Shown one piece after another: positions 23,654 through 46,728 of a DNA stretch of 64,000 nucleotides. Position numbers and translations under genes: made by a program. The DNA lies in assembly GCF_024436435.1 (NCBI RefSeq), contig NZ_JAFMZP010000004.1:310001-374000 (forward strand). The letters run 5' to 3'. Each line of letters starts with the position of its first letter. The stretch's first letter is position 1. The notes beneath the pieces are model-generated. The model was not told the DNA's origin. It was given only the letters and a program-made list of their open reading frames with translations, and did no database searches. This DNA comes from Desertivirga xinjiangensis (lineage in GTDB: Bacteria; Bacteroidota; Bacteroidia; Sphingobacteriales; Sphingobacteriaceae).

Positions 23654-24496
23654 ATGCTTAGTTCCAAATTCAATCTTTACAATGCCGGGTGGCTCGACGT
23701 TGTATTTGCAAACAGAAATCAAACTTATGGCGCTTATGAGTTAAGAAAAAACTACTCTGCAAGATTAGCAAAATCATTACTGGCAGCAGTAACCCTTTTT
23801 GTGATACTGGTTTGTTCACCTGCTATATATAAATATTTTAAAGAGGAACCGCTTATTGAGCCACCGGTTGAGCTGCTCGACGAACAGATGTTTACGGCGA
23901 CCGTCGTGAACATTAAACCGCCTAAAAAAATAGAAGTTCCGGCAGCCGCAAAGGGCCAGGCTAAACCTGTAAGGGGAAAGTCGGTTGGCTGGACCACTCC
24001 AAAAGTGGTAGATGCGAGCCAGGTAACTCAGGATGTACCCGCAACTGAAGATCTAATGACATCGGTAATAAGTACCAGTACTCAGGATGGGCCAGAAATA
24101 GGAGGCAATGTGATAGAAGGCCTGGAAGGAAAAGGAGGAAATGGAACCTCCGGAGAAACAGGGAATGGGGTTACTGGAGAAACAATATTTGAGGTTGTAG
24201 AGCATCAACCAATGTTTCCTGGTGGATTAGAGGCTTTTGCCAACTACCTGCGAAAAAATCTCAGATATCCTGCTGCTGCATCAGAGATCGGAGTAACGGG
24301 GAGGGTGTTTGTCAATTTTATAGTGGAGAAGGATGGAAGTTTGACTGATATTAAAGTGGTAAAAGGGATAGGGCATGGCTGTGATGAGGAGGCGGTGCGA
24401 GTATTGAAAAAGTCTCCCCGATGGGCTCCTGGAATACAGAATCAACAAAGGGTAAGGGTTATGTTTACGATTCCTATTGTGTTTCAAATGGAGTGA
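23654..24496 (+). CDS. TonB-type energy transducer
   Basis: A 280-residue periplasm-spanning protein that couples inner-membrane proton-motive force to outer-membrane receptors such as SusC. It has a cytoplasmic start with NQTYGAYELRKNY (22-34), one transmembrane helix (about 39-56), a proline-, lysine- and glycine-rich linker and a C-terminal TonB domain (about 180-280) with PMFPGGLEAFANYL, YPAAASEIGVTGRVFVNF and the closing RVMFTIPIVFQ. ExbB/ExbD are not adjacent. The ANRNQTYGAYELR start is common in Bacteroidota TonB proteins. Confidence 0.9.
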   Translation: MLSSKFNLYNAGWLDVVFANRNQTYGAYELRKNYSARLAKSLLAAVTLFVILVCSPAIYKYFKEEPLIEPPVELLDEQMFTATVVNIKPPKKIEVPAAAKGQAKPVRGKSVGWTTPKVVDASQVTQDVPATEDLMTSVISTSTQDGPEIGGNVIEGLEGKGGNGTSGETGNGVTGETIFEVVEHQPMFPGGLEAFANYLRKNLRYPAAASEIGVTGRVFVNFIVEKDGSLTDIKVVKGIGHGCDEEAVRVLKKSPRWAPGIQNQQRVRVMFTIPIVFQME

Positions 24497-24548: not shown

Positions 24549-25505
24549 ATGCTGACTGAAATTTCGAAGGAAGAGTGGATCAATATTACGAAGGATACTG
24601 AATGTGCTTCGATATTTATTGATCCAGTTTTTTTAGAACCAATAAGCCGGGTTTTCAGATACTCTATAAAATACTTTATGGCTGAATTTAAGGCAAAACC
24701 AGCGCTTGGTTTTGCCTGCTTTGTAAAAGGGAAATCAATTAAGGTCCCTACTCATTTTATTTATTCAGGGCTGTGGTGGGATTTAAAATATGATACTATC
24801 AAATTCCGAAACTTGTTAATAGAGGCGATTGGCGATTTAAAGAGGTCTTACAATTCCATAGAATTTCGTTTGCCTCCGCCCGTGAGTGATATCCGGCCTT
24901 TCCAATGGCAGGACTTTTCATATCAAGTTAGTTATACCTATACAAGAAATACGACAGACCTTAACTTTGAGTATAATATAAAGTCTCGTGTAAAGAAGTC
25001 ATTTGAGAGGAAGATTGTACCATCTGTTTCATTTTCTTTTAGCGATGTCTGGAATCATCAGATACATGATCTTAAGCGCTTTCATTTTTCAGATCGCTTG
25101 CTAGGAAAGACCAAATCACTTTTTAAAGCCTGGTTTGAAAATGGTTTTATGCTTATTTATGAAGCACGAAGTCCTGAGGGCTTAGTTGGATCATCGTGTG
25201 TGCTATATGACCAGCACCAGTCGAAAGCATATAATCTATTGATAAGTTCAGCGAATTCTAATTATCATACAGGAGTTCATGCCGCACTGTATAACTTTAT
25301 CTTTAACGACCTTCGATCCAGGGGTATCAATAATTTCGACCTTTACGGAGCGGATTTAAGAGGCGTTGCTGATTTTAAATCCAGTTTTGATGCGATATTA
25401 GAGGCGCACTATACAACCAGATATAATGGCAGAGCTGCATTTGTGAAAAACCTTAAAAGCGGGCTAAAGAATAAACTTATTGCTATAAAAGGAAAGGTCC
25501 TCTAG
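24549..25505 (+). CDS. FemAB/GNAT-like peptidoglycan or glycan acyltransferase
   Basis: A 318-residue cytoplasmic protein of the FemAB-like/acetyltransferase-6 group (double GNAT fold). Segments RNTTDLNFEYNIKSRVKKSF (about 138-157) and the C-terminal HAALYNFIFNDLRSRGINNF and FDLYGADLRGVADFKSSF are typical of these transferases found in polysaccharide clusters of Bacteroidota. Members transfer aminoacyl or acyl groups to peptidoglycan or surface sugars. Its end overlaps the convergent asparagine synthase-like gene by four bases. The substrate is unknown. Confidence 0.7.
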   Translation: MLTEISKEEWINITKDTECASIFIDPVFLEPISRVFRYSIKYFMAEFKAKPALGFACFVKGKSIKVPTHFIYSGLWWDLKYDTIKFRNLLIEAIGDLKRSYNSIEFRLPPPVSDIRPFQWQDFSYQVSYTYTRNTTDLNFEYNIKSRVKKSFERKIVPSVSFSFSDVWNHQIHDLKRFHFSDRLLGKTKSLFKAWFENGFMLIYEARSPEGLVGSSCVLYDQHQSKAYNLLISSANSNYHTGVHAALYNFIFNDLRSRGINNFDLYGADLRGVADFKSSFDAILEAHYTTRYNGRAAFVKNLKSGLKNKLIAIKGKVL

Positions 25506-27304
25506 TCGATCCACTCTTCAAGCCAAAGTTCTAGTGCTAAAAGTATCCAGATCTGTCCGCTGAAATAGCTTTGGGGATTTCGTTGAAAACGGCTCAGTGT
25601 GCTTGAAATTATTTGAGGGTTCAGCAAATTTCTCTCACTTAATGTCCGAATTTTTTGCTTAGTAAATTCTTTAAGGTTATTCGAAAGCCAGATACCAACC
25701 GGCATTGAAAAGCCCTTTTTGGGTCGGTCCAATAAATGTTTAGGAATATACTGATGCGCAATTTCTTTCAACAAGTATTTAGCCTTTCTTTCTGGACATT
25801 TTTTGTCTCCAGGTAACGCTGTAATATATTCAACCAGGTCAATATCCAGTAGGGGATCCCGGTTTTCAATACCGAAATGCATTAAACACCTGTCGGCTTT
25901 CATAAGAAGATCGTCAGGAAGGTAGTTTAAAAGATCAAAGTTTAAAAGAGTATTTAATTTGTCATCAGAGTTATGGTCAAACTCGAGTTCGTTGGCAGTC
26001 CCTGTAAGCAAGAGTGTTTCCTCTTTTGTAAAATAACCACGAAGGGCTTTGTGGAAATTTAAAGGATTACTTTGACTGAAAATATTTATCAGGCGACGTT
26101 TTTTTAAACTCGGGGGAAAAGGTACTATGCCGGCAAACGGGCTGTACTTTAAGGATTGGAAGTAAGAATTGTAACCACCAAAAAGTTCATCTCCTCCTTC
26201 CGCAGAATGCAGTACCTTAACGTGCTTCTGTGTTAATTGGCCGGCCAAAAGTAAAGGGATAGCTCCGCTGTCACCCATTGGTTCATCGAAAGTTTGGCCT
26301 AAAGAGGTAATCAGATCATGGATTAATGAGTTGTTGAAATATAGTGTATGATGTTCGCTGCCTATATGATCAGCAATTTTTTGAGCATCGTGGGCTTCAT
26401 TATATTTGGCTTCCTTAAATCCAATGGTAAAGGTCTGAATCTTATTTGCTAGCTGTTTTTGGGCAACTGCTGCCACTGTCGAGCTATCATATCCGCCACT
26501 TAAAAGAAAACCTGTTGGTGCATTTGAAATAAACCTGCTGGTAATAGATCGTACTAATTTTTCATGAGTATTCTTTAAGATTGAAGCCGTGTTTTCATCA
26601 CCGGCTATTACGGATGTATTTAAATGCCAGTATCTGGTTTTCTCCAGCTTTCCGGAAGATATATCGAGGGATATAACTTCTCCAGGGCTAACTTTGAATA
26701 CATTATGTAAAATGCTGTATTTGGATGGAAAGTAACCATACTCAAGATACAAGCTGAGAGCAGCCATGTTTATTTTTTTAGGAACGATGAGCTGCTTTAA
26801 AAACACCCGTAATTCGGATCCAAACAATAGTGTGTTGTTTTCAAAATAATAAAAAAGGGGCTTTACTCCAATTTTGTCTCTGACAAGAAAAAACTTGTTT
26901 TTTATTCCGTCGTAAATAGAGAAAGCGAATACTCCGTTTAATTTTTTCAAATAAGTATCTGGCCAGGTGATGTAGGTTTGAAGCAATACTTCTGTATCCG
27001 AATCTGATTTGAATTTCACACCATAATTCGAAAGTTCTAACTTTAATTCTTTATAGTTGTAAATAGTTCCGTTGAAAACCAAAACATAATTTCCACAATC
27101 ACTCTTGAAGGGCTGGTGCCCTCTGGCAGATAAATCAATTATAGATAGTCTGCTGTTTCCCATTGCTATCGAAGAATTGTTTGTTCTGCTGAAATAAAAA
27201 CCAGCATCATCCGGCCCCCGGTGTTTAAGAAGCGTTAGTGAATCACTTATATCTTGTTCTGAAAGTTTACCCGAAAAGTCAACAAATCCTGATATACCGC
27301 ACAT
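25502..27304 (-). CDS. asnB: asparagine synthase (glutamine-hydrolysing)-like amidotransferase
   Basis: A 600-residue two-domain enzyme. The N-terminal Ntn glutaminase has the nucleophile Cys2 (MCGISGF), LKHRGPDD (26-33) and SRLSIIDLS, and the C-terminal PP-loop synthetase has LLSGGYDSS (the usual SGG-x-DSS). AsnB homologues in surface-polysaccharide clusters often amidate sugar carboxylates rather than make free asparagine. It is followed two bases upstream by the large C25 protease gene on the same strand, so both are expressed together. A glycan-modifying role is inferred from this setting, not shown by the sequence. Confidence 0.85.
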   Translation of the reverse strand: MCGISGFVDFSGKLSEQDISDSLTLLKHRGPDDAGFYFSRTNNSSIAMGNSRLSIIDLSARGHQPFKSDCGNYVLVFNGTIYNYKELKLELSNYGVKFKSDSDTEVLLQTYITWPDTYLKKLNGVFAFSIYDGIKNKFFLVRDKIGVKPLFYYFENNTLLFGSELRVFLKQLIVPKKINMAALSLYLEYGYFPSKYSILHNVFKVSPGEVISLDISSGKLEKTRYWHLNTSVIAGDENTASILKNTHEKLVRSITSRFISNAPTGFLLSGGYDSSTVAAVAQKQLANKIQTFTIGFKEAKYNEAHDAQKIADHIGSEHHTLYFNNSLIHDLITSLGQTFDEPMGDSGAIPLLLAGQLTQKHVKVLHSAEGGDELFGGYNSYFQSLKYSPFAGIVPFPPSLKKRRLINIFSQSNPLNFHKALRGYFTKEETLLLTGTANELEFDHNSDDKLNTLLNFDLLNYLPDDLLMKADRCLMHFGIENRDPLLDIDLVEYITALPGDKKCPERKAKYLLKEIAHQYIPKHLLDRPKKGFSMPVGIWLSNNLKEFTKQKIRTLSERNLLNPQIISSTLSRFQRNPQSYFSGQIWILLALELWLEEWID

Positions 27305-27305
27305 A

Positions 27306-30300
27306 TTATCTCATCAGGTAGATTTTACCAAAGTTGTTTTTGAAAAATTTATCGCCTGCGGTGCTTCTGTGTTTTATTGCTGTACTGTCATTGTTTTCGA
27401 CCAGAACCCTGTAAAAATAAACTCCATTAGCCAGGCGATCACCGAATTGATCAGTTCCGTTCCAGGTAAACTGTGAGATGTTATTACCTATTCTCAAATC
27501 TCCAAGTTCTTCTTTCAATACCTCTCTTACTATTTTACCGGTAGCTGTAAGTATTTGTATTTTTAATTTGTCAGGAATTTTGTCACCCGTAAGGGTGAAA
27601 ACAAATTTCATACTTGTTGTAAAAGGATTGGGGTACGGATAAAAGTTAGATATACTCGATTCGTTTACTACTTCAAAATCAATTTGGTAATCAGTAGTTT
27701 CATTGTAGTTTCCTAAAGCGTCCTTACCACGAACCTTTAAAGTGTATGTACCATCCTCAAACCGGTCTGGGCGATATTCAATAACGGCTTTGTTATTGAC
27801 AGTACTGGTGGACGGCGTGAAGCTTAGTTTGCTGGATGAGAAATACTCTCGTTTGTATTCTGAATCACTCTCTTCCTGCTTTTTATGAGAAATCTCTACA
27901 GAAGAGGTATCGGCAATTTTAAAATATTTGCTGTCATCTAAAACGCTGATGTTAATAACAGGTTTTGGCGACACTAATTCGCTGTTGATAATGTTTTTTC
28001 CATCGAAAAGGACATTCACAAGAGGCGCTCGATTATCATTGATAACCGTGAAAAATTGGTTCAGATAGTTGTTTGACTGTTGTCTATCCTTGTCGTCCTT
28101 GGGTTTGAATTCTATTTTAAGGGTATTGCTGCCTTTTAAGCCCTTGGTTGGGATCTTCACCGTCACGCTTGTACTATCACCGGGGTTCAGAGGGGCGAAC
28201 GTATCAATGTAAGTCGTCGTAGCGCTGCGGTCGGATTTGGTTAATGTATAAAAGGTAGTGATTGAATCGGTTTTAATTGATGAAATATTTTGATAGGCAA
28301 GTTCCCATTTTACAGTATCTCCTTCCTGGATGACCGGAGTGTAAAAGTTATTTTTTAGAGATGTGTTTATCGACCCCTCGGGATACCCATCATATAAAAC
28401 TTTCCAGGATTTTAATTGCGCCGGAGTTCTGTTTGTTTTATCCGCTAAAGAAACATTGAATTTCAAAAAGGGATATTCGTTGGCGTCAATGTCGCTTAAA
28501 TCAACTGATTCAGATACTGAACTTCTCTGAATCAGGTTGCTCTCTACCCCATTTTCTTTGACGCCGATGATGTTTAGTGACAGTTCGTCGTAGGCATCTG
28601 CCTCAAACTCATATTGTAAGCTCTCCCATTTTTTTGATGGTCCTACCAATTCGGACGCATACGATCCCTGTGTAAAAGGGTAGTAATATTCTTTTTGAAA
28701 TTTAATGACCTGTCTTCGGGCAGGAGTGCTGGAATTGGGATCGGCAGTTATTTCAATTGCAGTGCCTGGTGCACTACCTTTTTGCCCCCAGAACATATAT
28801 GGCTCACCGGGACCAACAGATTGGAAGGTACTTAAACCTACGGATTGAAGTGCGGTTTTAGCTTGAGCGGAAAGGTCTTTCAGCGAAATATTCCTCCCGT
28901 TATGACCGACTACATAGTAATTCGCAGGGATATTATTGATATAACGAATTAAGCTGTCCACTTCAATAGAGTTATTGATGTTGAAATGGAACTCTCCGGA
29001 ATTGACAAATTCTCCTGGAATATTAAATGCAGAAGTATAGGTAAATGTTGTCAGTGTTGACGGATTTAAAGCGATAATGCTGACTCCTGTAAAATTAGTA
29101 TCTCCAAAACCGAGTCTCCCGCCAGGATCAGAACGGTATGCTCTTTCTTCGCCTGATGTTACATCATCACCCAAGGTTTGTATATTAGTAATAAACGTAG
29201 TATTATTAAATGCCACTCTTCCATGGTCACTTATCCAATGCGTACCTTTGAACGATAAATCTTCAAACTGATTTTTATGGGATTGATTCCATCCGTTGGG
29301 GCTTTGTTCAATATAAGTAAAAGAGGCATCCTGCCAGGAATCTTCAGAACCAGCCAATTTGACCCTCCAATAGTAAACCTTATGATTTTCGAGCGAAATG
29401 CCAGGTTGCCAGGTTGCAATATTATTTTGTGTGACGTTCCCTGAAGATTTCTTCCATCCGCTGTTGAATGAACGAATGGTGTCGATTTCAAAATTGAACT
29501 CAATGTCGTTAGAAAATAAGTTTGATGCCTGTGCTTTTAATTCCACAGAAGGGTTTGATATAATACTATTTACTAGAGGGGAAAGAATGGTTACTCCATT
29601 CGAAGGCATAATAAAGTTGAAGCTAGCGGTATTATTTACTTCGTTCAATTCATCAAAACTATTATTTGCGTCCAGGCTTATGGTAAATTTGTTGCTCCCA
29701 CCAAGTTTCAAATTCTCTCTTTTGATATAAAAAAATAGTGTGTCTGTATTATATACCGGATCAAAAGTCCGGGCAGGGTAGGTGAGTATGGTATTGTCTG
29801 GCAATGTGTGTTTGACAGAAACACTTAGTGGGGAGTTCAGGGCTTTGCCAAGGTTTTTTGTAATGATTGCCACTGCAAATGAATCGCTTGCTGCTGTAAT
29901 ATTTTCGGGATAGATAAATAAGTCTTTATTTTCCAGATAATAATCAGGTTTTGTTGGACTATAGAATTTTAAAGCAGGATCCCCCTGCCATAAATATTGC
30001 CTTGAATGTGTCCGGTTCAAAATATCACTACTGTTCTGATAGCTTTTTATGGTTGCCTTCAAATTCTCAGCGATCGATTTGCCGTAATTATTTTTAAATA
30101 AATTGCGGTATAAAATTGTGCTGAAATTACCCAAATAGCTAGCTACCCCTTCATCGGAAGTGGCCAGCCAACCGATCGCTGCTTTCCATGGCTGGAAGAT
30201 CATCTTTTCTCCAAGCGAAATTTGAGTAAAAGGGTTTCCTGCGTTACAACCGTTAATCATGTAGACTAACAATTTGTTTTGGTTCTGAAGTTCTTCCGGT

Positions 30301-32228
30301 TCTCCGAAGTTAACTTCGGTTGCTTGAGCACTACCATGTCCAAAAAAAGAGAGCAAGCCAGCTCCCTTGTTAATGCTAGCTACTATTTTATTCTTCAGGT
30401 TATCTGTAATAGGTTCAGACACATTCTTTTGAAAATTTATTGCTTTTGCTCCAAAACTTTCTTTAGCTGCTTCACGAAGAAAGCTGTTTTGAAAGCCTGA
30501 CCACTGTGTGTTCTCATACACTGTGTTGCCTCCACTAACATGAATGAAATTTTTTCTCCAGATCGAATCAGGTTGTTGTTCATACGTCTTCAATTTATTT
30601 AAATAGATTTCAACTTCAGCAGGTGTTTGAGCAGCGACTCGACCCGTTGAAATGGCCGGTTCCCATACGGTTCCGTCCAATCCGCTTGTTAACATATTGT
30701 CTGATGGGGGATTGCCGATACCGGGCACCAGGTCCTTTTCAAATTCGTTTCTTAAAAAGAAATGAGATTTACCCTTGCCTAATAAGAGCAGATATTCCGG
30801 TTTTCGAGCTGCTTTTTCTATTAGATATTTACAGAAATGCCGGATAGCTAAAGGGTGGTGAATGCCATAATAAAATTGATTGTAAAGCTGGTCAGTGGTA
30901 ACAACTAGAGGTTTGTATCCGGTCTGAGCACGGTAGTCTGCATATTCCTGGGCTTTAGCTAAAAGTGAGGTATGTGTAACAATCAAAAAGTTTTTATCGG
31001 AATTAGAAGGCGAAAAGTTTACAAAGTTTACCGGCGTAATTTCAGGCGTCCCAAAATTCGAATGATCATAAACAAATATTTCTTTATCGTTTCCGGCACC
31101 AGGAACGATAGCTTCTAATATTCCGTTACTTTGGTTGGCTTCGATTCTTATATTATTAGTCAAATCTAAAACAATGGGCGTGATTAAGGAGGAATTGCTA
31201 AATCTTATCAGGGAGGTGTTTTCTGTTTGAAATCCTTTCAACGTAAATTTCAAAAATTGCTGACCCTGTAGATTGTATTGTCTTGGATATTGAATTTTTA
31301 AATAACCAGGAGCCTGGTAATCAGTGTAATTGGCATAGGTGGAACTTGCTGCAAGATCTTTTACAGCTGAAAAACGGAAATATGTGGTGCCGCCTAATTC
31401 GTTAGCTCCTAGGTTGAACTTGTCCCTCACGACATTGTATTCTCTATACAATATGTCTCTTTTAGTTACGAAATTACTACCGTCCTTACTTACTTCGATG
31501 CGCAGATGATGGTTGTTTGTGTTCCCTGTTTGGGAGTTCGAACGTCCGGCTACATAAGCTTCGACATCGATTGAGGCAGCTCCTGAAAACAAAAATGGGG
31601 TGGAAAGGGCCTTTATCTGGGAGCTGGCATGATGGATTGTTGAACCTAGGATTCCTTCTCCGGCAGTATATTCGGAAAGACTGGTTTCTGCCAAAATGTA
31701 GGCTCCCGGATAGTAACCGCCGTCAGTAAAGAAACTAACCTCAGTATGCATAAAATAAGATTCGGCCGTTAAACCAGTCGAAATGCCTGTGAAACCAGTA
31801 AAGCGTTTGCCAGGAACTGAGTTTGACCATGTCAGAAAATAAGCTGCCGTGTCCGTGTACAAGCTGTAATAGTCGTGTGGCTGGTTTGCCGGATCAGCGT
31901 ACAAAGGTTTATCTAGTTTGCCATCATTTTTAGAAGCATAAAATTCTAAATAATCGCCCACATCCAGTTGAGCATCACCTTCACCCGATATAAATAGGGC
32001 GATCTGTTGACCTTTAGAAAATAATTGAATGTTTTTTGGATTTATCTCCGAAACCGGCAGTCCCGCCTGTTGAAGCTGATTTTGTGTTATCCGGTAAACT
32101 CCGTCTTTGCTAATTTTAATTTTATAGTAAGTTTGAGAAAAATTAATCCAATCATTACCATAAGGGGTTTGAGAAAAAATCAAACAGGAAGGTAATAAAG
32201 TAAAAAAAAGAAGAAGCTTAAATTTCAT
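27306..32228 (-). CDS. large C25 (gingipain-like) protease, PorU2-like, secreted
   Basis: A 1640-residue exported protein with a signal peptide ending near FSQ (residue 20). The order is an N-terminal beta-rich region (20-400), a C25 caspase-like peptidase domain (about 410-760) with H631 in FFGHGS and C661 in INGCNAG as the dyad, a CARDB-like beta-sandwich (about 770-870), further Ig-like domains, an interleukin-like/ILEI-type domain with YYVVGHNGRNISL (about 1100-1160), and a C-terminal sorting-like domain with YPYPNPFTTSMKF and an LANGVYFYRV strand. C25 proteases of this shape include the type IX secretion sortase PorU and its relative PorU2. PorU of P. gingivalis is much shorter, so PorU2-like is the better fit. 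It sits inside a glycan cluster, upstream of asnB on the same strand. Confidence 0.8.
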   Translation of the reverse strand: MKFKLLLFFTLLPSCLIFSQTPYGNDWINFSQTYYKIKISKDGVYRITQNQLQQAGLPVSEINPKNIQLFSKGQQIALFISGEGDAQLDVGDYLEFYASKNDGKLDKPLYADPANQPHDYYSLYTDTAAYFLTWSNSVPGKRFTGFTGISTGLTAESYFMHTEVSFFTDGGYYPGAYILAETSLSEYTAGEGILGSTIHHASSQIKALSTPFLFSGAASIDVEAYVAGRSNSQTGNTNNHHLRIEVSKDGSNFVTKRDILYREYNVVRDKFNLGANELGGTTYFRFSAVKDLAASSTYANYTDYQAPGYLKIQYPRQYNLQGQQFLKFTLKGFQTENTSLIRFSNSSLITPIVLDLTNNIRIEANQSNGILEAIVPGAGNDKEIFVYDHSNFGTPEITPVNFVNFSPSNSDKNFLIVTHTSLLAKAQEYADYRAQTGYKPLVVTTDQLYNQFYYGIHHPLAIRHFCKYLIEKAARKPEYLLLLGKGKSHFFLRNEFEKDLVPGIGNPPSDNMLTSGLDGTVWEPAISTGRVAAQTPAEVEIYLNKLKTYEQQPDSIWRKNFIHVSGGNTVYENTQWSGFQNSFLREAAKESFGAKAINFQKNVSEPITDNLKNKIVASINKGAGLLSFFGHGSAQATEVNFGEPEELQNQNKLLVYMINGCNAGNPFTQISLGEKMIFQPWKAAIGWLATSDEGVASYLGNFSTILYRNLFKNNYGKSIAENLKATIKSYQNSSDILNRTHSRQYLWQGDPALKFYSPTKPDYYLENKDLFIYPENITAASDSFAVAIITKNLGKALNSPLSVSVKHTLPDNTILTYPARTFDPVYNTDTLFFYIKRENLKLGGSNKFTISLDANNSFDELNEVNNTASFNFIMPSNGVTILSPLVNSIISNPSVELKAQASNLFSNDIEFNFEIDTIRSFNSGWKKSSGNVTQNNIATWQPGISLENHKVYYWRVKLAGSEDSWQDASFTYIEQSPNGWNQSHKNQFEDLSFKGTHWISDHGRVAFNNTTFITNIQTLGDDVTSGEERAYRSDPGGRLGFGDTNFTGVSIIALNPSTLTTFTYTSAFNIPGEFVNSGEFHFNINNSIEVDSLIRYINNIPANYYVVGHNGRNISLKDLSAQAKTALQSVGLSTFQSVGPGEPYMFWGQKGSAPGTAIEITADPNSSTPARRQVIKFQKEYYYPFTQGSYASELVGPSKKWESLQYEFEADAYDELSLNIIGVKENGVESNLIQRSSVSESVDLSDIDANEYPFLKFNVSLADKTNRTPAQLKSWKVLYDGYPEGSINTSLKNNFYTPVIQEGDTVKWELAYQNISSIKTDSITTFYTLTKSDRSATTTYIDTFAPLNPGDSTSVTVKIPTKGLKGSNTLKIEFKPKDDKDRQQSNNYLNQFFTVINDNRAPLVNVLFDGKNIINSELVSPKPVINISVLDDSKYFKIADTSSVEISHKKQEESDSEYKREYFSSSKLSFTPSTSTVNNKAVIEYRPDRFEDGTYTLKVRGKDALGNYNETTDYQIDFEVVNESSISNFYPYPNPFTTSMKFVFTLTGDKIPDKLKIQILTATGKIVREVLKEELGDLRIGNNISQFTWNGTDQFGDRLANGVYFYRVLVENNDSTAIKHRSTAGDKFFKNNFGKIYLMR

Positions 32229-32235
32229 ACTTCAC

Positions 32236-32243
32236 CAAATTTA
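32236..32243 (-). promoter_or_regulatory. -7-like element close to the C25 protease start
   Basis: Minus-strand octamer TAAATTTG matches TAnnTTTG and ends 7 bases before the ATG at 32228, in the 51-bp divergent gap with the GT4 gene. No -33 match is seen at 19 bases, so it is only suggestive. Confidence 0.4.
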
Positions 32244-32279
32244 ATATTTTTAGTTTACCCATTTAGTGCTGAGTGCTTA

Positions 32280-33470
32280 ATGCAGAAAAAAAAAACTTAC
32301 GTATTAGTATTACCCAGCTGGTATCCTAGCAAAGTGCATCCTTTCAATGGTGATTTCAATGAAAGAACAGTAAATGCTCTATCATCAGAAGTTGACCAAA
32401 TTGTGTTATACGTAGTAAAGAAGGAAAAAGGTTGGCAAATCGATACCACATGGTCGCACACTGAAAACTTGATAACCTGTAAAGTCTATTACCCGGGCTT
32501 GAATCTGCCAGTTATCGGCAAGTACATTTCAGTATTTAGTTATTATATAATAACTAAATATTATATCAGGAAAATTATTTCCAGGTATGGACTTCCTTCT
32601 CTCGTTCATATGTATGTGATCCTATATGCTGGCATTTTAGCGCCCTGGATTAAGAAAAAATACCGGCTGCGTATTGTGATGACGGAGCACTGGACTGCTT
32701 TTTATGACTATGCAGCCCATAACCTGTACCAATATCCTGGTTTGATACAAAACCTGATTAAAAAGCTATACAAAAGCGTTGATCATCTGATGCCTGTTGC
32801 AGATGCTTTAGCCCGTCAAATAAAACCTTGGGCACCTGCCGTGCAGCAAACGGTTATTCCCAATGTTGTGAATACTCGTATTTTTAGTCCGCAAATATCT
32901 CCTGAGAATCAATGTTCAGGGATTGAAAAAGGGAAGAAACTGCGTTTTTTACACGTATCCTCCATGGAATACCAAAAAAATCCGGAAGGTATCTTACGTG
33001 CGTTTGAATCGGTGTTAAAGAAAGGGACTCTTGCAGAATTATGGCTAGTAGGGCCGGTGGGAGCGAGCCTGCAATTGATGATTGACAAATCAGAGCTTTT
33101 AAGGGGCGCAGTACAGGTAAAGGGGGAAGTTCCTTATAAAGATGTGGCTGTTTACATGCGGAAAGCTCAGTGCTTATTGATGTTCAGTCGGTTTGAAAAC
33201 CTTCCCTGCGTTATTCTTGAGGCTTTGTGCTGTGGCCTGCCTGTTATCGCAACAGACGTTGGAGGTGTAAAGGAAATTATAGATCCCTCAAACGGAATTT
33301 TGATACATTCTGAAGATGGAAAAGCGCTCGAAGAAGCGATTACTTCGATCGTCAACAATTATGATCTTTACAACGTGCAAAAGATCTCAAAAAATGCTAT
33401 CGAACATTATAATTATTCGACGATTGCAAAACGGATTTCAAAAATATACAACGAAGTTTCGTTGATTTAG
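32280..33470 (+). CDS. glycosyltransferase family 4
   Basis: A 396-residue GT-B-fold transferase using a nucleotide sugar. The N-terminal acceptor half opens with LVLPSWYPSKVHPFNGDF, the middle has MTEHWTAFYDYAAHN and the C-terminal donor half has FSRFENLPCVILEALCCGLP, the E-x7-E motif, followed by VIATDVGGVKEII. It starts the plus-strand part of the surface-glycan cluster and is divergent from the C25 protease. The sugar donor cannot be told from sequence. Confidence 0.9.
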   Translation: MQKKKTYVLVLPSWYPSKVHPFNGDFNERTVNALSSEVDQIVLYVVKKEKGWQIDTTWSHTENLITCKVYYPGLNLPVIGKYISVFSYYIITKYYIRKIISRYGLPSLVHMYVILYAGILAPWIKKKYRLRIVMTEHWTAFYDYAAHNLYQYPGLIQNLIKKLYKSVDHLMPVADALARQIKPWAPAVQQTVIPNVVNTRIFSPQISPENQCSGIEKGKKLRFLHVSSMEYQKNPEGILRAFESVLKKGTLAELWLVGPVGASLQLMIDKSELLRGAVQVKGEVPYKDVAVYMRKAQCLLMFSRFENLPCVILEALCCGLPVIATDVGGVKEIIDPSNGILIHSEDGKALEEAITSIVNNYDLYNVQKISKNAIEHYNYSTIAKRISKIYNEVSLI

Positions 33471-33480
33471 ATGTTGATTG

Positions 33481-34692
33481 ATGCTCAGGAAGATTGTATA
33501 TACTTTTCAAACGAGTTTAGCCAGCGCTTTTACAGCTTTATTAACTGTTTGGCTTACAGTGAGGTTTTTAGGAGCTGAAGGGCGAGGGGTTATTAGCTTG
33601 TTTCTGATAAATATTTCAGTAATTCAGATATTTACCTCTATTGTAGGTGGAGCGGGCCTGGTTTATCTTGTTCCGCGTTACGGGGTGAGCCGGGTGTTTT
33701 TTCCGAGTCTAGCCTGGGCTATCATCTGTTCTTTACTGGGTAGTTTTTTAATGGAAAAGCTGTCCCTCGTACAATCATCATTTTTTATTCATACCATTGT
33801 TCTTTCTTTTTTTCAAGCTATAATACTCAATAACCTGCAGATTCTGATAGCTAAGGATAGGGTGTCCGTCTATAATTTCTGCCGTTTATTGCAGCCCGCA
33901 ATGGTTTTCGCGGTATTTGGCCTGCAATTGATGATTCAATCTCATCATTCAGTCAGTCTTTTCTTTAATTCTTTGTATGTGAGTTTTACCATCGTTCTAT
34001 GTATTAGCTCTTTTTTTACGTTTAAAGGTGAGCGTTTTTCAGGCAGATACTTTGAGTGGGAAGTAATCAGCACTTTTTTTCATGTTGGTGGCCTTAACGA
34101 ACTTAATAATATAATGCAGCTTGCCAATGGCAGGTTTTCATTCTATATTGTTGAGAAAACTTTAGGAGTGGCGGCACTTGGCATCTTTTCCCTTGCAATC
34201 AGTCTTACAGAAGCAGTGTGGATGTTTGGTCGCAGTATAAGTACGATTCATCATAGTGAAGTTTCGCGAAAAGAGGAGAGCGGCTTGAAGAACAACGAAA
34301 AGTTGATTAAAATGTCCTTTTTGGGAACTTTAACTATGTTGATTATTGCTCTGTTGCTGCCAGCTAGACTATATCGCGAGGTCTTCGGCTTGGAGTTTAA
34401 AGAAATAAAGTGTGTAATTCTTTTGCTCGCTCCGGGAGTAATTGCTTTATCTGGCGCTATGGTGATCTCCCATTACTTTTCGGCGATTAAAAAAATTCAT
34501 TTCAATACGGTGTCTTCAGCAATAGGTTCCCTCATCATAATTGTATGCTCTTTGATGCTTGTTCCTCAGATGGGAATACATGGCGCAGCGCTGGCCAATA
34601 GCCTTTCATGGATAACCACTTCCTTGATAATATTTTTCCAATACCGGAAGTTAAAAAAAGTATATTCAGGAAGTTTATCTGATATCAGTTAA
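33481..34692 (+). CDS. polysaccharide flippase (Wzx/MATE-like)
   Basis: A 403-residue inner-membrane protein with about 12 hydrophobic helices and the start MLRKIVYTFQTSLASAFTAL followed by RFLGAEGRGVISL, typical of PST/Wzx flippases that move lipid-linked oligosaccharides to the periplasmic side. I use ATG 33481, since a TTG one codon upstream is the only other start. It lies 10 bp after the GT4 gene and is part of the same operon. No Wzy polymerase is recognised nearby. Confidence 0.8.
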   Translation: MLRKIVYTFQTSLASAFTALLTVWLTVRFLGAEGRGVISLFLINISVIQIFTSIVGGAGLVYLVPRYGVSRVFFPSLAWAIICSLLGSFLMEKLSLVQSSFFIHTIVLSFFQAIILNNLQILIAKDRVSVYNFCRLLQPAMVFAVFGLQLMIQSHHSVSLFFNSLYVSFTIVLCISSFFTFKGERFSGRYFEWEVISTFFHVGGLNELNNIMQLANGRFSFYIVEKTLGVAALGIFSLAISLTEAVWMFGRSISTIHHSEVSRKEESGLKNNEKLIKMSFLGTLTMLIIALLLPARLYREVFGLEFKEIKCVILLLAPGVIALSGAMVISHYFSAIKKIHFNTVSSAIGSLIIIVCSLMLVPQMGIHGAALANSLSWITTSLIIFFQYRKLKKVYSGSLSDIS

Positions 34693-34720
34693 TATATTTA
34701 TGCATTAAACCAATACTTTG

Positions 34721-36022
34721 ATGAAATTGCCGTCCAGTTTGGAAATATCAAACTTTATACGTTTCAATCTTTTTAATCCCTTTTTTTATAAAGATAAAAT
34801 CAGTAGCGCTGTTGATAATCCTGAGCAGTTCAAAAAAGCGATCTGGATTGCGGTGTTGTTACGCTTTATGTGGTTTTTCTTTATAGGGCACAGCGATCTT
34901 GAAATTTATAAATATTGGATGATTTTTTTGAAAGATCTGCCTATATTTTCTTCTTACAATATCCCCACCTATGCTGAATTTGATGTATTGCCGCTCACAG
35001 CAATAATCCTAAAGATTGTTACTTCTATTATCGAACTTATTCCCAACGGTATAAATATTCCCGGATTTGCGTATACAGGGATTCGTTTTGCTAATCTACT
35101 TATTGAGGCAGGATGTATTTATCTGCTACACAAAGAGCTTAAAAATCCATTTATTACATTCTTTTTGCTCTTTAATCCTGCCAGTATATTAGACGGCTAT
35201 TTGTGGGGACAAATGGATGTTACGTATACTCTGCTTTTTGTTCTATCTCTGGTATATTTTTTAGGGCGCAAGCCCCTTTTATCGGGACTTTTTATCGGGT
35301 TAAGCATTGCTTTTAAAACACAGACCTTGTTGTTTTTGCCTCTTTTCGGTCTTATTATTTTAATCAGGAAGGAAAATTGGGCCTCGTTTTTTAGGCTGGT
35401 TTCGGTCGCTTTAATTATTACTTCGACGCTTTACCTGCCTTTTATGCTGGGGGGCAAAGAATTTTGGGCACCGGTTATGGTAAGTTTTACAGCTTACGGT
35501 CGTTATGATTTTATATCGGTGAATGCCTTGAATATCTGGTGGGGAATGTTTGCTCAGTATGATTTGCAATTCCCTGATAACCATGCGCTCGTTTTCGGCC
35601 TGATATCCAGAAGACACTTTGCTTTGAGCTGTTTTGCGGTAGTATATAGCCTCATTTTGATTAAAACCCTGAAAATAAAGCTGAACAATGAGAACATCTT
35701 CAGGCTGTTTTCCATCCTTTGTTTTAGTTACTTTATGCTTTTGCCCGAGATGCATGAGCGATACCTATATCCCTTTTTTATTTTCTATGTTTTTGTTCTT
35801 CGAAAAGATAAAACCTGGTATGTGCTTTTCTGGTTAGTTAATGCTTTTTATGCATTTAACCTCCTTTACGGTGGATGGCTTGCCTGGTCTGGATTGCGGA
35901 CAATCACATTTTTTAATATCTCAATCGTAGCGTCTTATGTCATTTTTCTGGTATGGATGTATTATATCTTTACAGAAATGAGGGTGCTTAAAACTTCAAG
36001 TCAATTAAAGAACCAGGAATGA
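34721..36022 (+). CDS. GT-C membrane glycosyltransferase
   Basis: A 433-residue polytopic protein with about ten helices, resembling GT-C transferases that use polyprenyl-phosphate-linked sugars on the periplasmic side. Family marks are LLFNPASILDGYLWGQMDV (150-168), GLSIAFKTQTLLFLPL and the luminal-side PEMHERYLYPFFIF (about 344-357). The preceding in-frame TTG is one codon upstream. Its stop overlaps the start of the GtrB-like GT2 by four bases, and that enzyme could make its lipid-linked donor. The acceptor and sugar are unknown. Confidence 0.78.
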   Translation: MKLPSSLEISNFIRFNLFNPFFYKDKISSAVDNPEQFKKAIWIAVLLRFMWFFFIGHSDLEIYKYWMIFLKDLPIFSSYNIPTYAEFDVLPLTAIILKIVTSIIELIPNGINIPGFAYTGIRFANLLIEAGCIYLLHKELKNPFITFFLLFNPASILDGYLWGQMDVTYTLLFVLSLVYFLGRKPLLSGLFIGLSIAFKTQTLLFLPLFGLIILIRKENWASFFRLVSVALIITSTLYLPFMLGGKEFWAPVMVSFTAYGRYDFISVNALNIWWGMFAQYDLQFPDNHALVFGLISRRHFALSCFAVVYSLILIKTLKIKLNNENIFRLFSILCFSYFMLLPEMHERYLYPFFIFYVFVLRKDKTWYVLFWLVNAFYAFNLLYGGWLAWSGLRTITFFNISIVASYVIFLVWMYYIFTEMRVLKTSSQLKNQE

Positions 36023-36954
36023 AAATATTATCTGTAATTGTTCCCTGCTATAATGAAGAGGCGGTTATTTTGAAAACTCATCAGCGGTTATTAGCTGTCT
36101 TATCAAAATTGGTACTGTTTCAATTTGAAATAATTTATGTTAACGACGGTAGTACCGACAACACGCTAACCTATCTCGAAAAAATAGCATCGGAAGACAA
36201 GGCGATAAAAATTCTTTCTTTTTCCCGAAACTTTGGGCACCAGCCCGCTATTTCGGCTGGCCTAGCTCATTGTAGCGGTAACATAGCTATAGTCATTGAT
36301 GCTGATCTTCAGGATCCGCCTGAATTAATACCTGAAATGATTCAGATGTGGGAAAAAGATTTCCAGGTGGTTTATGGCAAGAGACGTACCCGGAAAGAGA
36401 AAGGATGGTTTAAATTATTGTTGGTAAAGTTTTTTTATCGCTTCATTAACGTCCTTTCAGATATTGAAATACCAGTTAACACAGGCGACTTCCGTCTAGT
36501 GGATCGCCGGGTAATTGATATTTTAAACATGATGCCCGAAAAATACCGTTACGTTCGGGGTATGGTCAGTTGGGCAGGGTTCAAGCAATGCGAAATTTTA
36601 TATGACCGCGATAGCCGGTTTGCAGGCGACTCAAAGTATCCGATGAAGCGATTGCTAAAGTTGGCTGCCGATGGTATCTTTTCATTTTCCTTAGTTCCGT
36701 TGCGTGTCGCTTCATGGATCGGGGCCAGCACCGCTCTGCTTTCCGTAATAGGCATCATTTATGCCTTCTTAAATAGGGTACTTACAAAAAATTGGGTGCC
36801 TGGATGGACATTGCTTTTTATAGCGGTAATGTTTTTAGGCGGTGTAACCTTGCTTGTTCTTGGTATCATTGGGGAGTACATCGGAAGAATTTACGGAGAA
36901 GTGAAGCAAAGACCTTTGTATCTCATCGAAAGCAAAACAGGTTTTGACCAATGA
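36019..36954 (+). CDS. DPM/GtrB-like polyprenyl-phosphate glycosyltransferase (GT2)
   Basis: A 311-residue enzyme that attaches a sugar from a nucleotide donor to polyprenyl phosphate. It has the GT-A domain with VPCYNEE (8-14), NDGSTDN (42-48), FSRNFGHQPA and the metal-binding DADLQDPPE (about 94-102), followed by two C-terminal transmembrane helices. This is the GtrB/ArnC type. Start ATG 36019 overlaps the previous stop (ATGA). Paired with the GT-C protein, it forms a donor-synthesis and transfer module. Confidence 0.9.
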   Translation: MKILSVIVPCYNEEAVILKTHQRLLAVLSKLVLFQFEIIYVNDGSTDNTLTYLEKIASEDKAIKILSFSRNFGHQPAISAGLAHCSGNIAIVIDADLQDPPELIPEMIQMWEKDFQVVYGKRRTRKEKGWFKLLLVKFFYRFINVLSDIEIPVNTGDFRLVDRRVIDILNMMPEKYRYVRGMVSWAGFKQCEILYDRDSRFAGDSKYPMKRLLKLAADGIFSFSLVPLRVASWIGASTALLSVIGIIYAFLNRVLTKNWVPGWTLLFIAVMFLGGVTLLVLGIIGEYIGRIYGEVKQRPLYLIESKTGFDQ

Positions 36955-37030
36955 TTGAGCAGGGTGCGATAGTTTCATCGCATTTAATATTTGCAGTAAT
37001 TACCGATCATTTTTACCACTTAAATATATA

Positions 37031-37843
37031 ATGGTGTTAATCCGAGTTTTAAACCGTTTTTGTAATCGCTACATTACTCTTAAAAGTTTTTCTGAGAATA
37101 TTTTCCAGACAATTCAGTTGTTTTGGTTTTTCCGACTGGCAAGCTTAACGTATTTGAAAGGAGTAAATAAAAAAGACGGACATCGTATAAAGATGCTCAC
37201 GCTAAATATCTTCAATAAAAAGACTAAGCTTTGGTTTAGACCAACACAAGGCGACTTGTTAATATTTAACGAGGTGTTCGTCGAGAAACAGTACAACCTT
37301 CCCATAAGCGATGAAAAATTAGATACTATCATTGATCTGGGTGCTAATGTTGGCTTTTCCAGTTTGTTTTTCATAAAAAAATATAATCCGTCAAAACTCA
37401 TTCTTGTAGAACCATCAGAAAAAAATCTTACCGTGGCAAAACTAAATCTGAACTATTGGATTGGAACAAATCAGTGCCACTTTTATATGGCTGCGGTCCA
37501 TTATAAAAAAGGTACGGTTTACCTTGATGAAAGCTTAGCTCCTTATAACTTCAAAACAAATACGACAGGAAGTAGCGGTGCAGTTAATACCGTCACTATT
37601 CCACAGATCATGCATGAGCACGGTTTGAACACAGTTGATCTTTTAAAAATTGATATTGAGGGAGCTGAAAGTTATTTATTTCAGCAGGACACGGATTGGC
37701 TCAGATCTATTAGAACAATTGTTATTGAACTTCACTCACCCTTGAATGAACGTTGGTTGAAAGAGAAGCTTGAGCCTTATGGGTTCGAAATAATATCCGA
37801 GCCGAAAAATCATACTATTTTTGTAGCGATCAATAAAAGATAA
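37031..37843 (+). CDS. FkbM family methyltransferase
   Basis: A 270-residue Rossmann-fold SAM-dependent enzyme. The SAM site is IDLGANVGFSSLFF (about 101-114) and the FkbM hallmarks are LILVEPSEKNLTVAKLNL and LLKIDIEGAESYLF (about 205-218). Family members O-methylate sugars of surface glycans, antibiotics and lipids. It ends the plus-strand glycan run, 76 bp after the GT2 gene, so methylation of the same glycan is a fair inference. Confidence 0.87.
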   Translation: MVLIRVLNRFCNRYITLKSFSENIFQTIQLFWFFRLASLTYLKGVNKKDGHRIKMLTLNIFNKKTKLWFRPTQGDLLIFNEVFVEKQYNLPISDEKLDTIIDLGANVGFSSLFFIKKYNPSKLILVEPSEKNLTVAKLNLNYWIGTNQCHFYMAAVHYKKGTVYLDESLAPYNFKTNTTGSSGAVNTVTIPQIMHEHGLNTVDLLKIDIEGAESYLFQQDTDWLRSIRTIVIELHSPLNERWLKEKLEPYGFEIISEPKNHTIFVAINKR

Positions 37844-37882: not shown

Positions 37883-38269
37883 ATGCTCAACATCACCTCC
37901 ATCCACCACATAGCCATCATCTGCTCAGATTACGAGCGTTCAAAACAATTTTACACCCAAATTCTAGGCCTTGAAGTAATCTCCGAATATTATCGCAACG
38001 AAAGAGACTCCTACAAACTCGACTTGAAAATCGGTGATGCACAGATCGAACTTTTTTCCTTTCCATGCACCCCAGAAAGACCCTCAAGGCCGGAAGCCCG
38101 CGGATTGCGTCACCTTGCTTTTCAGACAGATGATATCGATAAGGCTGTTGAGCAGTTAAAAGAAAACAACATTGAAGTTGAGCCCATCCGCACTGACGAA
38201 TTAACCGGCAAGCGCTTCACTTTTTTTGCTGATCCAGATCTTCTTCCCCTTGAGCTCTACGAAAAATAG
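37883..38269 (+). CDS. gloA2: glyoxalase I-like VOC protein (GloA2/YaeR type)
   Basis: A 128-residue vicinal-oxygen-chelate protein, closely like E. coli YaeR across its length. Hallmarks are IHHIAIICSDYERSKQFY (7-24), the conserved FSFPCTPERPSRPEARGLRHLAF patch (the 50s to 90s) and FADPDLLPLELYE at the end. Metal ligands are H9, E54, H75-area and E126-area by analogy. Whether it degrades methylglyoxal is not established for YaeR-type members. The next gene begins inside it. Confidence 0.85.
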   Translation: MLNITSIHHIAIICSDYERSKQFYTQILGLEVISEYYRNERDSYKLDLKIGDAQIELFSFPCTPERPSRPEARGLRHLAFQTDDIDKAVEQLKENNIEVEPIRTDELTGKRFTFFADPDLLPLELYEK

Positions 38270-38975
38270 TATTTTCAGATTTAAGCAGTTTGAAGTTGAT
38301 CAGTCGGGCTGTGCCATGAAGATCAATACTGATGGCAGTATCCTTGGCGCACTGGCAGGAGGCGAGAATGCCGCGAGGATACTTGATATTGGTACCGGCA
38401 CCGGAGTAGTTGCACTGATGCTGGCACAAAGATTTCCGGAAGCGCATGTTGATGCGGTTGAAATCGAGAAGGTCGCAGCAGCTACCGCCGAACGTAACTT
38501 CAAGGGATCTGTGTTTGCAGGAAGGCTTACCATGTTTCCGTTCGCATTCCAGGAATTCTTCAATGCCAACCCAGAAAGTAGGTACGATCTCATCGTAAGT
38601 AATCCTCCATTCTTTCTTGATTCTCTAAAAAATCCTGATAAGAATAAACAAACAGCGCGGCACACAACGAACGATTTTTTTGAAGCGCTGGTAAAGCTAT
38701 CGGCCAAACATTTAAATGCCGGCGGGGTGCTTACTTTAATATTGCCACCATCTACATTTTTAATCTGCAGAGAATTGGCCGAGAAAGAAGGTTTGTATCT
38801 CGTAGAGCAAGTTGATATAAAGTCCTTTGACGATTCTGAAGTTCACAGGAAATTAGTTAGCTTCAGCTTTCAGGAGCAAGTCACCAGTCACAGTACATTC
38901 GTAATCTATGCTTCACGCAATCAGTATTCCCAACAATTTGTGAATGCATTGGGAAGCTTCTTTACAATATTTTAG
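38250..38975 (+). CDS. trmN6: tRNA1(Val) (adenine(37)-N6)-methyltransferase
   Basis: A 241-residue SAM methyltransferase that makes m6A37 in tRNA-Val. The family start FRFKQFEVDQSGCAMKINTDG is followed by the SAM site DIGTGTGVVALMLA and the catalytic SNPPFF, then KQTARH. No ATG lies upstream of the conserved FRFKQF; I use the TTG at 38250, which overlaps the VOC gene by 20 bases, and an ATT at 38271 or a TTG at 38226 are other options. Position and length fit TrmN6/YfiC. Confidence 0.83.
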   Translation: MSSTKNSIFRFKQFEVDQSGCAMKINTDGSILGALAGGENAARILDIGTGTGVVALMLAQRFPEAHVDAVEIEKVAAATAERNFKGSVFAGRLTMFPFAFQEFFNANPESRYDLIVSNPPFFLDSLKNPDKNKQTARHTTNDFFEALVKLSAKHLNAGGVLTLILPPSTFLICRELAEKEGLYLVEQVDIKSFDDSEVHRKLVSFSFQEQVTSHSTFVIYASRNQYSQQFVNALGSFFTIF

Positions 38976-44898: not shown

Positions 44899-44945
44899 AA
44901 AACCCTGGTGTCAAAATATCAATAGTTAGGGTTTTGCTTCAACCT
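44899..44945 (-). terminator. terminator overlapping the susD-like stop
   Basis: On the minus strand, arm aaaaccct (plus 44938-44945) lies inside the last codons of the SusD-like gene, and the other arm agggtttt (44899-44906) is followed by more T residues, after a 31-base gap that includes the stop codon. Confidence 0.6.
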
Positions 44946-46709: not shown

Positions 46710-46728
46710 TTTTTTAAGAATTAAATAC

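Follow-up and report, generated by a model that had tools for sequence, protein, structure and literature searches.

The locus

The window, the whole stretch of 64,000 nucleotides of Desertivirga xinjiangensis (Sphingobacteriaceae) that was analysed, carries at positions 24549-37843 a cluster built around the gene for PorU2, a putative sortase of the type IX secretion system (T9SS). All eight open reading frames that had been reported there were found. It is likely, in our judgement, that the locus joins this sortase to a linking-sugar cassette like the Wbp/Vim genes of Porphyromonas, making an amine-bearing sugar for the attachment of cargo. Two neighbours, a FemAB-like and an AsnB-like protein, are candidate counterparts of VimA and WbpS, and FemAB and sortase are distributed together among genomes. 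The original prediction had the protease join cargo to a glycan made next door, and lacked the more specific VimA/WbpS-like cassette. Gene content, conserved residues, the predicted fold of FemAB, the conserved location and the co-distribution of FemAB, PorV2 and sortase are the observations used here. The features of the cluster are the following (positions in the window).

27306..32228, minus strand: PorU2, putative type IX secretion sortase (C25), 1640 residues (NF052324, PF01364)
29967..30989, minus strand: C25 catalytic domain of PorU2, residues 414-754 (PF01364, 222 bits)
30336..30338, minus strand: catalytic His of PorU2, H631
30246..30248, minus strand: catalytic Cys of PorU2, C661
28773..28988, minus strand: ILEI domain of PorU2, residues 1081-1152 (PF15711, 31.3 bits)
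27381..27635, minus strand: C-terminal FlgD_ig / type A C-terminal domain (CTD)-like domain of PorU2, residues 1532-1616 (TIGR04183, FlgD_ig)
25502..27304, minus strand: AsnB-like glutamine amidotransferase, 1 nt after PorU2; candidate uronic-acid amidotransferase, WbpS-like (TIGR01536)
24549..25505, plus strand: FemAB-like (double GNAT) protein; candidate aminoacyl transferase, VimA-like (predicted fold, locus conservation)
32280..33470, plus strand: GT4 glycosyltransferase (PF00534, 99 bits)
33478..34692, plus strand: probable Wzx-type flippase (via an alignment of relatives only)
34718..36022, plus strand: GT-C (GT87) glycosyltransferase, local addition (PF09594, 31.9 bits)
36019..36954, plus strand: GtrB/PgfS-like GT2, local addition (PF00535, 118 bits)
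37031..37843, plus strand: FkbM-type methyltransferase, local addition (TIGR01444, 76 bits)

PorU2 as the candidate sortase of the genome

The C25 protein had been called PorU2-like, and this assignment was borne out. It scores 846 bits (cutoff 450) with NF052324, the NCBIfam model for the 'putative type IX secretion system sortase PorU2', and 277 bits, under the cutoff of 420, with the PorU model NF033707. When 58 C25 proteins were placed in a tree, the 30 rows of PorU2 and the 19 of PorU fell on two separate branches, each with support of 100, and the window protein groups with PorU2, apart from PorU (a quick tree under LG+G4, of the first 900 residues or 950 for other C25 proteins, holding 12 of the 21 family PorU2 proteins including the window's and no gingipains). 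The predicted His/Cys pair is indeed intact: all 20 PorU2 proteins of the alignment have H631 and C661, the stop-broken PorU2 of locus L053 being omitted. The ILEI domain also passes its cutoff of 27 bits. The sorting-like C-terminus passes FlgD_ig with 27.8 bits (cutoff 27) and TIGR04183 with 23.4 bits (cutoff 23), margins of less than 1 bit, so that this part of the prediction is borderline. A phmmer search of the PDB with PorU2 gave no match up to E 0.01.

PorU2 is the single PF01364 match in its own genome (5.5 Mb, 99.98% complete), which also has one PorV match (477 bits) and one PorV2 over cutoff (481 bits). TIGR04183 matches 45 proteins there, 40 of them over cutoff and PorU2 itself among the 40. 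About 39 candidate cargo proteins, counted in this genome only, thus have PorU2 as the one CTD sortase candidate that was found. Its sortase (transpeptidase) activity is putative, in keeping with the database name. Two PorU2 copies lie close together at L131 and L134, in genomes of other families. The PorU2 of L053 (genome G112) has an in-frame stop, with PorU also present in that genome, and looks like a decaying copy.

Identity of the neighbouring proteins

AsnB, GT4, GT2, GT87 (cutoff 25 bits) and FkbM all pass their Pfam cutoffs, as had been proposed, while the FemAB-like protein and the flippase are weak alone and were recovered only through their relatives. The AsnB-like protein scores 431 bits with TIGR01536, 420 bits with TIGR03108 (below its cutoff of 817) and 278 bits with the AsnB model PRK09431 (cutoff 499). 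Cys2 and the ATP-loop residues S269, G271, D273 and S274 are invariant in seven of seven AsnB-like proteins. In the seven loci that carry it, the gene starts at -1 nt (five loci), 0 or +1 nt from the end of PorU2, so that sortase and amidotransferase are probably translationally coupled. The GtrB-like GT2 stays below the cutoff of NF047588 (290 bits; cutoff 500). Searched alone, the window flippase matched no flippase model. An alignment of 12 relatives, which mixes flippase families and has Polysacc_synt in six members, the window's not among them, gave a profile matching the lipid III flippase 9g95 at E 1.1e-7.

The window FemAB-like protein matches PF13480, a GNAT domain, at E 0.034 only. 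For the 21 FemAB members this is the nearest Pfam model (12 matched); PF02388 matches one member at E 7e-4 and TIGR03019, in the NCBIfam search of the alignment, one at E 0.03, in neither case the window's. The AlphaFold model (predicted local distance difference test, pLDDT, 93) has the double-GNAT fold of FemABX transferases. Foldseek placed Weissella FemX first. With VIA-align 2, aminoacyl-tRNA-dependent peptide synthases came out on top (9wqy, Z 23.8, 267 residues, 3.6 A); FemX and FemA gave Z 19.7-21.5 over 274-288 residues, the aminoacyl-lipid synthase domains of MprF and L-PGS Z of about 15-17, and tandem acetyl-CoA GNATs Z of at most 16.1. By sequence, a wider FemAB profile reached 9wqw at E 3.6e-5 and FemX at E 0.005. 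The pair F276-K277 is invariant in 21 FemAB sequences (K277 in over 90% of 35) and is aligned with the FK of 9wqw; the alignment with FemX does not extend as far as Lys305, given as the reactive residue of FemX in PMC12945691. The protein is predicted, from its model, to fold like aminoacyl-tRNA-dependent transferases, and aminoacyl-tRNA is suggested as its amino-acid donor.

Genes kept at PorU2 loci of Sphingobacteriaceae

Gene content was tabulated for 26 PorU2 loci, the window and 25 further Sphingobacteriaceae genomes, over up to 20 kb around PorU2. PorU2 occurs in 29 genomes of the family, in 28 of them over cutoff and in G112 as a broken gene; G009, G023 and G132 are not among the 26, and L053 is included. 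The co-occurrence expected for the gene set held in part. FemAB is present in 23 of the 26 loci, a flippase of any of three families in 16 (the window's own family in nine), GT4 in 15, AsnB in seven, a CE4 polysaccharide deacetylase in five and the methyltransferase MT23 in four. The three loci without FemAB (L047, L051, L054) come from genomes that have it elsewhere. Away from PorU2, FemAB is found in G127 with CE4 and MT23 (L169, 312 bits), and in G122 and G137 in the order GT4-flippase-FemAB, with weak scores of 35 and 28 bits. The 6.6-kb contig of G009 (L056) shows no FemAB, and G023 has a FemAB fragment and PorU2 on the same short contig.

The GtrB/GT-C pair and FkbM, which the original prediction had counted among the parts of the cluster, were not kept: GT-C and FkbM occur in one locus each and GT2 in two of the 26. 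They were rejected as core parts and are thus local additions that may decorate the glycan in this species. A relative of the window GT-C (180-196 bits) lies near FBP, close to the cassette site, in genomes with PorU only (L170-L172).

Cluster f2, found in 15 of 21 loci, was rejected as a PorU2 partner, as by eye it reads as the housekeeping protein PurL. Two different FemAB genes stand at one PorU2 locus in L042, L049, L053 and L175, possibly for two amino acids or sugars. A membrane protein family, for which the label HTTM is a guess, is present at seven of the 26 loci (L041, L048, L049, L053, L175, L177, L178).

FemAB and PorV2 follow the sortase

Co-distribution was analysed over 151 Sphingobacteriaceae genomes, taking as sortase any match to the PorU2 model, which also captures PorU. 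The sortase is present in 39 genomes, the FemAB profile in 38 and both in 36; FemAB thus occurs in 36 of 39 sortase genomes versus 2 of 112 others (sortase by FemAB, 36/3/2/110; Fisher values ignore relatedness). With the 18 sortase genomes from which the profile was built excluded, FemAB was found in 18/21 versus 2/112, and in 15/21 versus 0/112 when matches of at least 50 bits were counted. The sortase genomes lacking FemAB are G008, whose sortase is itself a 29-bit fragment, G009 and G147, assemblies 71-77% complete. FemAB without sortase was seen in G029 (45 bits) and G041 (38 bits), where the surrounding genes resemble polysaccharide clusters of another kind (L181, L182).

PorV2 is present in 37 of 39 sortase genomes, three fragmentary genes counted, versus none of the 112 others (37/2/0/112); cross-matches of up to 53 bits, most of which lie at PorV genes, were disregarded. 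As PorV is present in 123 of the 151, it is the sortase, and not secretion as such, that FemAB and PorV2 go with. Where PorU2 is the only sortase match (16/39), FemAB accompanies it in 15 of 16 genomes (the exception being G009, 71% complete) and PorV2 in 16 of 16, fragments in G009 and G137 counted. By the same counts, most genomes of the family seem to have type IX secretion but no recognised sortase.

Controls at the cassette site

The cassette occupies a site between TonB/GlnA3/PurM and PurL/TrmN/FBP (the names PurL, PurM, GlnA3, TrmN, FBP and glyoxalase were read from the sequences by eye). In the window its borders, both outside the system, are these.

23654..24496, plus strand: TonB-family protein, left border of the cassette site (TIGR01352, 46.8 bits)
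37883..38975, plus strand: glyoxalase-like and TrmN-like genes, named by eye, right border; the same border in cassette-less relatives

The TonB-family gene flanks the site in relatives whether or not they have the cassette. In genomes with PorU only, FemAB stands at the same site in five of five loci (of eight genomes, a set that leaves out G112 with its broken PorU2 and G147, 77% complete), and PorU2 is absent from it. These sites hold FemAB-GT4-flippase in L167 and L168, two FemAB genes plus a flippase in L170 and L171, and FemAB followed by the contig end in L172; a flippase is thus present in four of five. From 22 hand-picked genomes without a sortase match, 20 were read (not G015 and G007; G029 and G041 were read separately), and neither FemAB nor a cassette-family flippase was found at the site in 20 of 20 loci, one of which (L184) comes from the window's own genus. 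GT4 appeared in these only as one weak match (30 bits, L200). GlnA3 together with PurL or TrmN lay in the stretch in 16 of the 20, in some with other genes between. The presence of FemAB at PorU-only sites and its absence from sortase-less ones are our strongest evidence that the cassette goes with sortase function, rather than just with the PorU2 gene or with varying capsule genes.

Elsewhere in the window, at 44919-49989, lies a SusC/SusD-like pair, so judged from its sequence.

PorU2 loci in other families

Beyond Sphingobacteriaceae, the family FemAB model matched none of 20 PorU2 loci from 18 genomes. The AsnB and GT4 models matched at one locus each and GT2 at two, one of them weakly, so the gene set as a general partner of PorU2 did not carry over. 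A PorV-like open reading frame precedes PorU2 at ten of these loci, by eye, and PorV2 adjoins PorU2 at three of three loci tested (501-563 bits, cutoff 325). At the scale of the phylum, the family FemAB profile was found in 44 of 170 genomes matching the PorU2 model and in 3 of 77 without such a match, for the most part with weak scores; C25 proteins thus occur in many genomes that lack FemAB. The link between FemAB and PorU2 holds, as far as tested, in Sphingobacteriaceae. Other linking-sugar pathways must exist, as Prevotella intermedia shows (PMC11969387).

One locus of another family, L157, in a genome with PorU2 and PorU, has a row of FemAB, GT4-like and flippase-like genes (the last two by eye) and a GFO/IDH oxidoreductase, possibly of the WbpB type. 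On contig C1 of G213, also from another family, the wide and unspecific FemAB profile matches at 76 bits about 12.5 kb from PorU2.

FemAB genes next to recA

In Porphyromonas gingivalis, vimA follows bcp and recA (PMC3663753). A wide FemAB profile, unspecific in that it matched in 308 of 395 genomes of the class with at most five candidates scored in each, served only to find recA-linked relatives. It found genes directly after AhpC/TSA (bcp-like) and recA-like genes at L257 and L263, both of one family, with 123 and 108 bits; recA was recognised by a sequence motif and the bcp-like gene was tested with Pfam in L263 only. Behind FemAB, L263 has genes for a DUF7033 protein and for two GT4-type proteins, of which one stays below its cutoff, whereas L257 has genes for a PIG-L deacetylase and for a DUF7033 protein. 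Judging from the place they share with vimA of P. gingivalis, these are probably vimA genes.

A model for the cassette

Linking sugars of the T9SS have been described in P. gingivalis, Tannerella forsythia and P. intermedia (PMC7468200, PMC11969387). VimA of P. gingivalis determines which amino acid (Ser or Gly) is on the linking sugar, and WbpS amidates the uronic acid (PMC7468200); the published anionic lipopolysaccharide (A-LPS) has a pentasaccharide linker on O-polysaccharide (PMC13086638). For the window we infer the sugar, the amino acid and the sortase activity along the same lines. The cell would supply from elsewhere an amino-uronic sugar nucleotide, which the AsnB-like enzyme would amidate and/or the FemAB-like enzyme would load with an amino acid at the sugar amine, probably with aminoacyl-tRNA as the source. 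GT4 would then add the sugar to a short lipid-linked glycan, which GT-C, GT2 and FkbM possibly extend or decorate, and the flippase would export it, so that the sugar ends on a surface glycan. Finally, following the published biochemistry of PorU (PMC10202324), PorU2 would cleave the CTD of the cargo through Cys661 and His631 and join the C-terminus so exposed to the aminoacyl group, at its free amine. The proposal of a protease joining cargo to a glycan made next door is retained here for FemAB, GT4, the flippase and sometimes AsnB, which are kept at PorU2, and dropped for GT-C, GT2 and FkbM.

The alternative that survives best, which we nevertheless consider unlikely, is an ordinary variable surface-polysaccharide locus bordering PorU2, its sortase and glycan genes being functionally unrelated. 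The varying gene set, the local additions, the lack of FemAB at PorU2 loci outside the family and the small number of independent joint changes given below all fit it. Such a locus does not predict that FemAB also accompanies PorU where the locus is without PorU2, nor that it is missing from all 20 sortase-less loci. A slightly less probable alternative makes FemAB an acyl-CoA-dependent sugar N-acyltransferase of an O-antigen-like glycan, not an aminoacyl transferase. The GNAT domain as nearest Pfam model favours it, as do the tandem acetyl-CoA GNATs that Foldseek listed too; the whole-length comparison ranks aminoacyl-tRNA-dependent enzymes (Z 23.8 to 19.7) over these GNATs, and the FK motif is matched in 9wqw. 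Least probable of the three is a PorU2 that releases cargo as a CTD peptidase, or acts as a surface protease, without transpeptidation, the FemAB cassette serving another amine-bearing surface glycan: its length, extra domains and distance from PorU in the tree speak for this, as does a sortase activity that is so far a database name only, with no paper on PorU2 by name found in PubMed Central (PMC) literature, a search that excludes subscription papers and preprints, and the company of FemAB and PorV2 in genomes with PorU2 alone speaks against it.

Several results count against the linking-sugar cassette, besides those from other families. AsnB is confined to a minority of PorU2 loci and occurs at none of the five PorU-only loci. 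Three of the 36 genomes with both sortase and FemAB (G122, G132, G137) match FemAB at 29-36 bits, no better than the sortase-less G029 and G041. Many genomes have sortase and cassette in physical linkage, and the independent joint changes of the two number four on supported branches and six on all branches of a second tree (sign test p 0.125 for four). Both trees are of housekeeping genes, the first of 34 genomes with a GlnA3 sequence and the second, a quick tree, of 34 rows with at least 330 filled columns; the genomes in which sortase and FemAB disagree (G008, G009, G147, G029, G041) are in neither, and one label served for both traits, so that agreement is by construction and the trees give only the number of independent pairs. 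The recA-linked FemAB proteins score 66 and 58 bits against the window FemAB, and other FemAB proteins of the class 36-63. Being no closer than several of these, they place its kinship with VimA at the level of the superfamily, and the functional parallel rests on context and fold. No VimE-like deacetylase was found among the genes of the window cluster, to which this search was confined. As to the sugar-nucleotide pathway, PF01041 aminotransferases have 11 matches in the genome, and three neighbourhoods holding four of them, read by eye, gave no assignment to WbpA, WbpB, WbpD or WbpE.

With these points weighed, the linking-sugar cassette remains the reading we favour. Beyond the oral species, it points to genes in Sphingobacteriaceae that may synthesise a linking sugar, and predicts that the linking sugar is aminoacylated and in some species also amidated. 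Secretion (PorV, 123/151) is separated from anchoring (sortase, 39/151), and the anchoring of proteins to sugar, worked out so far in oral bacteria, becomes testable in relatives of Pedobacter.

Comparison with known systems

The closest parallel is the Wbp/Vim system of P. gingivalis and T. forsythia, in which a GNAT/FemAB-like transferase (VimA) also serves a T9SS sortase and, in P. gingivalis, an AsnB-type amidotransferase (WbpS) is encoded with a wzx gene next to it (PMC7468200). Unlike the present locus, which has FemAB and AsnB at the sortase gene and no VimE, P. gingivalis has vimA after recA (PMC3663753) and wbpS elsewhere. The N-alanyl deoxyhexose linking sugar of P. intermedia likewise bears an amino acid and is partly O-methylated. 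According to PMC11969387, VimA and VimE are absent there and the pathway of alanine transfer is unknown, whereas here a candidate set is at hand, in another family.

The window C25 protein and the PorV2 of its genome are well over the cutoffs of the NCBIfam models for PorU2 and PorV2 (NF052324, NF052325). The descriptions of these models name no glycan partner; that PorU2 is linked with a FemAB cassette is a result of the present analysis. No paper joining type IX secretion with FemAB was found in PMC literature, subscription papers and preprints being outside its scope, and the 'PorV2' matched in the T9SS literature was, in the excerpt, PorV plus a citation number.

Exosortase/PEP-CTERM loci resemble the window in having a VimA-related FemAB protein (TIGR03019) and an AsnB-like amidotransferase (TIGR03108) beside a Gram-negative sortase (PMC7468200). 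They differ in sortase, secretion route and sorting signal, and the window AsnB is under the TIGR03108 cutoff. A wider principle may tentatively be proposed, although we hold it to be a possibility rather than a probability: FemAB and VimA would be FemX-type enzymes that mount an amino acid from aminoacyl-tRNA on a sugar and so provide the free amine for Gram-negative sortases. The aminoacyl-sugar cassette would be a separable unit, acquired and lost at one fixed place in the chromosome, whose presence goes with the sortase (PorU or PorU2, with PorV2) rather than with the secretion machine, and T9SS, exosortase and perhaps rhombosortase anchoring would share this principle.

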